Below are positions 22,666 to 24,334 of a stretch of DNA of 38,473 bases, one piece after another (positions within the stretch are counted from its first letter, which is position 1; each line of letters opens with the position of its first letter). The notes under the pieces are model-generated. The model saw nothing but the letters and a program-made list of their open reading frames with translations, ran no database searches and was not told the origin of the DNA. Where the stretch lies: positions 1 to 38,473 of the forward strand of contig JAQSDX010000033.1 in assembly GCA_029946125.1 (NCBI GenBank). Direction: 5' to 3'. The position numbers and the translations under genes were made by a program. This DNA is from Candidatus Methylobacter titanis (GTDB taxonomy: Bacteria; Pseudomonadota; Gammaproteobacteria; Methylococcales; Methylomonadaceae).

Positions 22666-22768
22666 TGCATTTCTCCTGTTTTTGGCTTGCCTAAGCCGGT
22701 TACGATAGAATACCGCTACCTGGATTATTGACCTACTCAACATGACAAATATGTCTGGAACCAATTTA

Positions 22769-22996
22769 CATTTACCCGAAGGGCGTCAGGAAGGACAGTC
22801 TGACGTGACCAATCCGCCGGCAGCGGATTTACATTTACCCGAAGGGCGCAGGGCAGGGCAGCCCTGCGTGACCAATCCGCCGGGAGCGGATTTGCATTTA
22901 CCCGAAGGGCGCAGGGCAGGACAGCCCTGCGTGACCAATCCGCCGGGAGCGGATTTGCATTTACCCGAAGGGCGCAGGGCAGGACAGCCCTGCGTG
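22769..22996 (+). repeat. Four 63-bp tandem repeats with two hairpins per unit
   Basis: Units begin at 22769, 22832, 22895 and 22958 (each with CATTTACCCGAAGGGCG); the last is cut after CCCTGCGTG at 22996, which abuts the U32 peptidase core. The 63-bp period is 21 codons and both strands stay open. Each unit carries GCAGGGC/GCCCTGC and AATCCGC/GCGGATT dyads. The first unit has GTCAG/CTGAC instead, with compensating changes that keep three base pairs. The core would be translated as LHLPEGRRAGQPCVTNPP per unit if the upstream ATG (22742) were used. Confidence 0.9.
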
Positions 22997-24334
22997 AAAC
23001 AAGTCGAATTACTTTCTCCTGCAGGAACGCTTAAAAACATGCGTTATGCTTTTGCCTACGGCGCCGATGCCGTTTATGCAGGATTGCCGCGTTATAGTCT
23101 GCGAGTGCGCAACAATGATTTTCTTGAAGATAATTTGGCCAAGGGCATCAATGAGGCGCACCAACTGGGCAAAAAGTTTTTCCTGGCGACCAATGTGATT
23201 CCGCATAATGCCAAGATTAAAACCTTTGTTAAGGATCTTACTCCGATTATTGCGATGCAGCCGGATGCCCTGATTATGGCCGATCCGGGCTTAATTATGA
23301 TGGCGCGGGAAGCATGGCCGGATATGCCGATACATCTGTCGGTACAAGCCAATACGGTCAATTATGCGTCGGTCAATTTCTGGAAAAGCATGGGCGTTGA
23401 ACGGGTCATTTTGTCCCGCGAATTGTCGCTGGATGAAATCGAAGACATTCGCCAGCGCTGCCCTGATACCGAGCTTGAAGTATTCGTCCACGGTGCGTTA
23501 TGTATCGCTTATTCGGGACGCTGTTTGTTATCCGGGTACTTCAACCATCGCGATCCTAACCAGGGCACTTGCACCAATTCGTGCCGTTGGAAATACGACA
23601 CCCTGCCTGCCGAAGAAAATGCCGAAGGCGATTACCTGCCTGTTGGCGAAGTGCTGTCCATGTCCGACATCAGCAACGCCAGTTGCGGCGGTGCGGAACG
23701 GCACCCGTTGGCCGATAAGGTGTATTTCCTGGAAGAAGAAGGCCGCAAAGGCGAGTTGTTGCCGGTCATGGAAGATGAAAACGGCACCTATATCATGAAT
23801 TCAAAAGACTTACGGGCCATCGAGCATGTGCAGCGTCTGGTCGAAATCGGCATAGACAGCCTTAAGATCGAAGGCCGCACCAAGTCGCATTATTATGTGG
23901 CACGTACTGCACAAACCTATCGTCAGGCGATTGATGATGCGTTGGCGGGGCGTGCATTTCAGCCGGAACTGCTCGGCGTGTTGGAGAACCTCGCCAATCG
24001 CGGCTATACCGACGGTTTTTATCAACGCCACCATACCCATGAGCAGCAAAACTATATCACCGGTTATTCCAAAAGCCATCAGCAGCAATTTTGCGGTGAA
24101 ATCAGAAATTATGATCAGGCAACCGGTCTTGCGACTATTGATGTTAAAAACAAGTTTTCGGTCGGCGATAAACTCGAATTGATACTGCCGACAGGCAATC
24201 AGGATATTATTGTCGAACGCATGGAAGGCATGTTCGGGCAAGTGATGGAAGAAGCGTCGGGCGGCGGCTACGAAGTGAAAATACCGCTGCCGGAAATAGG
24301 CGGTGATAAGGGTCTGCTGGCGCGTTATACTTGA
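22994..24334 (+). CDS. trhP: TrhP/YegQ-type U32 peptidase family tRNA hydroxylation protein
   Basis: Peptidase U32 family member; E. coli TrhP (YegQ) is needed for 5-hydroxyuridine formation at tRNA position 34. From the GTG at 22994 the protein has 446 residues, close to E. coli (453), and begins VKQVELLSPAGTLKNMRYAF, aligning with the known N-terminus. The family core shows ADPGLIMMAREAWP, HLSVQANTVN, the cysteine block VHGALCIAYSGRCLLSGYFNHRDPN and CTNSCRW, and SLKIEGRTKSHYYVARTAQ. An in-frame ATG at 22742 would add 84 residues made of tandem repeats; it lacks a ribosome binding site, whereas AGGA precedes the GTG. A possible promoter (TTGGCT, TAGAAT at 22706) would give a leader containing the repeats. 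Confidence 0.88.
   Translation: MKQVELLSPAGTLKNMRYAFAYGADAVYAGLPRYSLRVRNNDFLEDNLAKGINEAHQLGKKFFLATNVIPHNAKIKTFVKDLTPIIAMQPDALIMADPGLIMMAREAWPDMPIHLSVQANTVNYASVNFWKSMGVERVILSRELSLDEIEDIRQRCPDTELEVFVHGALCIAYSGRCLLSGYFNHRDPNQGTCTNSCRWKYDTLPAEENAEGDYLPVGEVLSMSDISNASCGGAERHPLADKVYFLEEEGRKGELLPVMEDENGTYIMNSKDLRAIEHVQRLVEIGIDSLKIEGRTKSHYYVARTAQTYRQAIDDALAGRAFQPELLGVLENLANRGYTDGFYQRHHTHEQQNYITGYSKSHQQQFCGEIRNYDQATGLATIDVKNKFSVGDKLELILPTGNQDIIVERMEGMFGQVMEEASGGGYEVKIPLPEIGGDKGLLARYT

Follow-up and report, generated by a model that had tools for sequence, protein, structure and literature searches.

The tandem array at the 5′ end of trhP in Candidatus Methylobacter titanis is best explained by a small palindromic element, non-autonomous and inserted in tandem, that is read through as a passenger of its host gene, a reading to which we assign a probability of about 0.87. 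Exact empty and filled sites, dispersal, in-frame positions in many genes and unit numbers differing between species were all observed. The element is likely to be mobile, with arrays that self-targeting and slippage would build and shrink, and the trhP extension is predicted from the sequence to be translated as a mostly tolerated passenger.

The trhP array and its empty and filled sites

The window, that is the whole stretch of 38 kb analysed, is one contig of a 3.5 Mb genome (G000) and holds a single tandem array. A repeat search located this array at 22,764–22,997 (period 63, 3.7 copies, score 394) and base-by-base reading resolved exactly four 63-nt units at 22,745–22,996, confirming the repeat reported in the preliminary description, whose start at 22,769 fell within the array and cut off the left part of unit 1. 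On the + strand, the native trhP start codon ATG (22,742–22,744) is followed directly by the element, at a target reading ATGA^AAC, and the four units by the trhP/yegQ core, starting AAACAAGTCGAA. Unit 1 (CAAAT..GTGA, 22,746–22,808, +) is of the CGTCAGG/CTGACG subtype and carries the CAAATATG variant; units 2 (22,809–22,871, +), 3 (22,872–22,934, +) and 4 (22,935–22,997, +) are of the CGCAGGGC/GCCCTGCG subtype, with no difference between units 3 and 4. Since each unit comprises 21 codons without a stop in the trhP frame, every copy leaves the gene open and would add 21 residues. The units share their frame with the core, as had been stated, in an ORF of 530 aa (22,742–24,334, +; Peptidase_U32 and U32_C in Pfam), including a predicted 84-aa element-encoded extension. 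The antisense strand is open as well, again as described, and this is predicted by the element's own sequence. A promoter-like site, TTGGCT-18-TAGAAT (22,682–22,711, +), lies upstream of the native ATG and is weak alone (one found, 0.8 expected); a stretch resembling it was seen by eye in Methylobacter relatives with the insert or with none.

A search for the trhP locus gave a match in 57 of 61 genomes, and 30 loci were compared, 21 from Methylobacter (the own genome included) and nine from genomes of other genera of the family. Twenty of the 30 genomes are without an insert, and in 19 of these (L025, L030 and L033 among them) the ATG directly abuts the first lysine codon of the core, G016 having two codons more. 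The insert follows the native ATG in ten genomes, is open and a multiple of three in length in all ten, and measures 252 nt in G000, 189 nt in G011, 126 nt in G018, 63 nt each in G013, G015, G019 and G022, and 51 nt each in G001, G002 and G008; in three genomes, 12 nt of the element were lost in frame and the hairpin is shortened there. Repeat number had been expected to vary, and it does so from 0 to 4 units, with four here against one in the nearest relative in the tree, G015.

The junction GTG (22,994–22,996, +), previously taken to match the start of the family, comes from the element's right end. The codon ahead of the core is GTG in seven of the ten insert-bearing genomes, CTA in G022, CTG in G002 and ACG in G001; with no ATG, GTG or TTG at the junction in these three, the proposed GTG start lacks conservation. 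Their in-frame starts lie inside the insert or at the native ATG, so that the insert is partly or wholly translated if whole TrhP is made. In the seven GTG-bearing genomes, initiation may take place at the junction GTG too. Taken together, the abutting ATG of empty sites, the preserved frame and the lost GTG codons support the 84-residue N-terminal extension, which had been ranked behind a structured leader; the array is probably not such a leader. A structure prediction for the 530-aa TrhP (12-row alignment) gave a mean pLDDT of 46.9, and of about 25 in the extension, too poor to use.

Dispersal, hairpins and host genes

A BLAST search gave 19 matches in the own genome, and a covariance model gave at least 30 at E ≤ 0.01 among the best 150 of 1386 candidates. 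At E ≤ 1e-4 the model matched in 37 of 61 genomes, including all 23 of Methylobacter, the counts per genome being lower bounds from the best 85 candidates at most in each, and a 24-base core pattern was present in 30 of 301 genomes of the order. The hosts found were Methylobacter and other Methylococcales. In its commonest form, the element consists of CAAATCTG-TCTGGAA-CAGATTTG, CATTTA, CCCGAAGGG, and CGTCAGGC-AGGAAA-GCCTGACG or a different subtype, followed by TGA. It had been proposed that copies scattered genome-wide with no positional bias would point to a simple mobile palindrome; the scatter was largely found, in the own genome and in relatives, but positional neutrality was not, since a target preference is present. 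No match was obtained in viral contigs searched with the pattern or in phage and plasmid records searched with the hrcA array as query, and no Rfam match at E ≤ 1 overlapped a copy at the six loci searched.

G025 (genus g4) gave at least 85 model matches, many of the same score, which suggests a recent spread there, and 22 exact matches to the core pattern. Three cores at G254:C1:525479-525630, in a different genus of the family, follow one another at 64 nt instead of 63. Copies at L093, L119, L124, L129, L131, L142 and L146 lie, by eye, in the apparent loop of another inverted repeat, with flanks ..CCGGCA^ and ^ATCC..GCCGG.., and the palindromes seem to be nested. An Rfam match to a group II intron, RF00029, above the gathering score was found at L139:897-970 (−).

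In 19 genome copies, 18 of them distinct, pairing in the three hairpins of the unit holds for 94.4% of cells. Double-sided changes numbered 44, against a shuffle mean of 14.7 (0 of 500 reaching 44) and 2–9 in slid versions, and nine pairs had such a change, against 5.8 in shuffles (7 of 500); further pair types, 17 against 18.6 with 488 of 500 shuffles reaching 17, were the one measure of five that did not favour covariation. Among the 13 full-length trhP units, the right hairpin has eight of eight pairs in eight, seven in three and six in two, and the left hairpin keeps five to seven of eight. The three swapped pairs described for unit 1 are present in the sequence. The covariation is therefore real, but it belongs to the dispersed family: unit 1 and units 2–4 are two element subfamilies, and it was their difference that had been seen.

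Ninety-four places were examined, orthologous places of different species being counted apart, and Pfam was run on chosen proteins. Ten internal in-frame sites were found in nine genes with Pfam domains: hrcA, tilS, comF (two sites, in opposite orientation) and the genes of a GDPD protein, an ABC transporter, an M1 peptidase, a penicillin amidase, a spermine-synthase-domain protein and a DUF4912 protein. N-terminal sites occur in trhP, an ABC-2 membrane protein (four assemblies, Pfam for one) and a DsrC-like protein (two units), and C-terminal sites in a histidine kinase and a tetrapyrrole methylase. The frame at L069 also runs on through the element, with no Pfam match, and many further copies lie outside long ORFs; ambiguous sites, including L007 (Mur ligase start), L008 and L099 (hypA start), L017 and L086, were left out of the coding count. 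Comparison with empty orthologues covered four of the ten internal sites, namely hrcA, tilS and both in comF. Exact empty sites were found for trhP, hrcA (ATGA^A), comF site B (CTGA^AAC) and comF site A (GCA^AAG), while relatives without a full unit at tilS have altered sequence, not an exact empty site.

In all seven real copies tested for reading frames, one sense frame is stop-ended and one antisense frame has an inner stop, the remaining four being open or closed depending on subtype. In the tested copies with loop GGATAG (L015 and L116), the trhP-type frame is closed, and both are antisense in their genes. It is thus the open frames that the genes use. Site lengths are multiples of three in 38 of 38 cases in ORFs against 46 of 56 others, a comparison that is not relied on, because open ORFs defined the classes, partial copies were assigned lengths by extrapolation from the model and most non-ORF copies are of 63 nt as well. 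In comF of G000, G015, G022 and G021 (L205, L206, L208 and L215), two elements in opposite orientation are both in frame. The histidine kinase (L015, L094, L098 and L137) and the tetrapyrrole methylase (L018 and L125) end in or just past antisense copies, with Pfam run for L015 and L018 only. A 64-nt subtype lies at the start of hypA (L008, L096 and L099), and its end, ATGCATGA, overlaps the native start.

Ends, target and turnover

At comF site A, the empty GCA^AAG and the filled GCA-CAAA..ATGA-AAG, a copy of 69 nt, show that the final TGA belongs to the element and that, at this one site, it inserted between A and A without target duplication. Unlike at comF site A, the left flank itself has a terminal TGA, by coincidence, at trhP, hrcA and comF site B. 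Among 75 sites with intact ends (the 94 places minus 19 without, orthologous sites counted apart per species, and the filter itself demanding a right end (A/G)T(G/A)A), C stands at −5 in 61, A at −1 in 72 and A at +1 in 55, and the left triplet is TGA in 29 and another in 46. C is fifth from the right end in 16 of 19 copies by eye. This end, usually CRTGA, resembles the favoured target, which would explain the head-to-tail arrays of period 63; among adjacent same-strand copies, chosen as at most 12 nt apart, the starts are 63 nt apart in 21 of 22 pairs and 64 nt in one. In the mechanism we propose, the 63-nt element with its three short hairpins would have entered trhP directly after the start codon, inserting after a C-N-K-S-A-like site and before an A with no target duplication. 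A new copy could insert at the end of the last one via the target-like CRTGA, or units could multiply or drop out by slippage between TGA repeats.

Unit numbers vary at hrcA too, from 0 to 3, with 13 of 23 genomes filled and 10 empty, the filled genes of G005 and G020 being strongly diverged, that of G002 shortened and that of G000 beside an assembly gap. On a three-gene tree, the minimum number of changes is five for trhP presence, four for hrcA, and two and four for the comF sites, rough counts given that 10 of 20 inner branches are open and that hrcA of G005 and G020 is missing from them. At trhP, G021 has no unit, and three and one are found in its well-supported relatives G011 and G019, respectively. 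The single unit of G019 is a hybrid whose left half is of type 1 and whose right half is of type 2, as expected from unequal recombination, which may have produced it. The CAAATATG variant occurs in 10 of 23 Methylobacter genomes, always at trhP, and at one other place, G011:C18; this near confinement suggests that the trhP inserts probably share one origin, so that the ten insert-bearing genomes are not independent.

Y1_Tnp matches number seven in the own genome and 59 in eight of eight relatives. At the 37 loci looked at (of 66 matches in nine genomes), no element copy lies within about 1.5 kb of Y1_Tnp, one chance-level match having E 0.84, and no mobilising enzyme was found beside the element. 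Unlike ends, no duplication and hairpins are reminiscent of IS200/IS605-type transposition, and we infer that Y1-like single-stranded transposition moved the element.

In the closest pair, G000 and G015, divergence is 0.079 in the element, 0.017 in the core and 0.025 in the 40 nt upstream; the element thus changes faster than the core, as for a passenger. Among G011, G013 and G018, the trhP element differs by 0.03–0.05, against 0.29–0.34 at third core positions. Across four genes, pS is lower in the element in every case (0.09–0.20 against 0.37–0.53 in the flank), and dN/dS is 0.44–0.62 in the element, not 1, against 0.00–0.23 in the flank, the hrcA window being shifted by one codon and so including one flank codon. 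Such low divergence and low pS would not be predicted for an old neutral passenger; allele spread, gene conversion or lineage-specific constraint could each account for the pattern.

Competing explanations and related elements

The structured 5′ leader, in which translation starts at GTG 22,994 and the upstream hairpins regulate trhP as RNA, draws on hairpins that covary, on the GTG that 7 of 10 genomes have where the family starts and on AGGA in the last hairpin loop 9 nt ahead of it. The right hairpin, complete in 8 of 13 units, cuts both ways, and in three genomes in-frame losses have truncated a hairpin. The junction has no start codon in 3 of 10, the frame from the native ATG is kept in 10 of 10, and the element also lies in the middle of hrcA, tilS and comF, so that we regard this leader as very unlikely. 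We give little more credence, and still hold it unlikely, to a selected N-terminal tag, a recruited peptide whose copy number tunes TrhP stability, partners or activity. Ten species keep the in-frame insert, dN/dS is 0.62 at trhP unit 1 and distant species diverge little; against this, 11 of 21 Methylobacter trhP genes are without the insert, its lengths range over 51–252 nt, similar peptides to the trhP extension are found in unrelated proteins, and the element outpaces the core in the closest pair.

A plain minisatellite, arisen by tandem duplication within trhP without a mobile element, would account for the identity of units 3 and 4 and for the exact period. Copies of the unit that share their ends are nevertheless scattered over the genome and the genus, and empty sites exist, which makes this origin highly improbable. 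Within the preferred reading of a tandemly inserted palindromic element, slippage is likely to lie behind the unit number at trhP.

Rickettsia palindromic elements (RPE) are likewise described, in the available parts of PMC2229807 and PMC3767692, as dispersed palindromes in conserved genes with the frame unbroken, and ATGAC is frequent in RPE-4, -6 and -7 (PMC3767692, in part). The Methylobacter element resembles these in the GTGAC or ATGAC at its tandem junctions and in its in-frame insertion inside conserved protein genes (ten sites in nine genes, with empty sites for hrcA and twice for comF). It differs, in a comparison by description only, in its other host group, in its three separate hairpins and in its length, 63 nt per unit against 68–192 nt for RPE inserts (table of PMC3767692, in part). 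GTAG- and CGTC-tagged REPs are dispersed hairpins, some of them in ORFs, encoding 20–30 aa or, when clustered, 43–82 aa; some lie at N-termini, and the CGTC class has no known transposase, as far as the available text of PMC3733652 goes. They are 20–40 bp long with an unpaired tag, and head-to-tail dimers are negligible for CGTC REPs (same source, in part); the Methylobacter unit is 63 nt long, commonly forms such dimers, and its CGTC, where present, takes part in stem pairing and differs between subtypes. The same authors warn, in the part available, that many N-terminal cases may precede the true start (PMC3733652), a concern answered for trhP by the empty sites and the lost GTG codons. ERIC and RU MITEs of enterobacteria are small and mobile repeats too, and likewise have open frames that are fused to genes; they have terminal inverted repeats and mostly a target duplication (PMC2229807, in part), and the Methylobacter element has neither. 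Its ends are unlike, the left triplet varying and the right end being constant, and no duplication was found at comF site A. IS200/IS605-type and RAYT-mobilised elements have hairpins, unlike ends, no target duplication and insertion 3′ of a short motif. The Methylobacter element differs from them in that no Y1 transposase lies beside a copy (37 loci).

Searches of the open-licence PMC literature turned up no description of elements of this type from Methylobacter or Methylococcales, and the available part of PMC4853749 holds nothing on them. By analogy, the element would work like RPEs and intragenic REPs, yet as a separate kind, in free-living methanotrophs. It is possible, albeit doubtful, that it represents a class adapted to enter coding sequence and moved in trans by some enzyme. 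If so, its 21 codons, its insertion without target duplication and its freedom from stops in up to four of six frames would be part of this adaptation; the right end would rebuild the target to give in-frame arrays of 21-residue modules, and such modules would be written into conserved genes of free-living methanotrophs. Obligate intracellular Rickettsia are the best-known hosts of in-frame palindromic insertion. Free-living methanotrophs show the same behaviour here: empty and filled sites coexist within a single genus, the ends are defined and unit numbers run from 0 to 4. How targets are chosen, how arrays grow in tandem or are lost, and how host proteins tolerate them thereby become testable. 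For annotators, it means that element-made inserts are present in conserved Methylobacter proteins.
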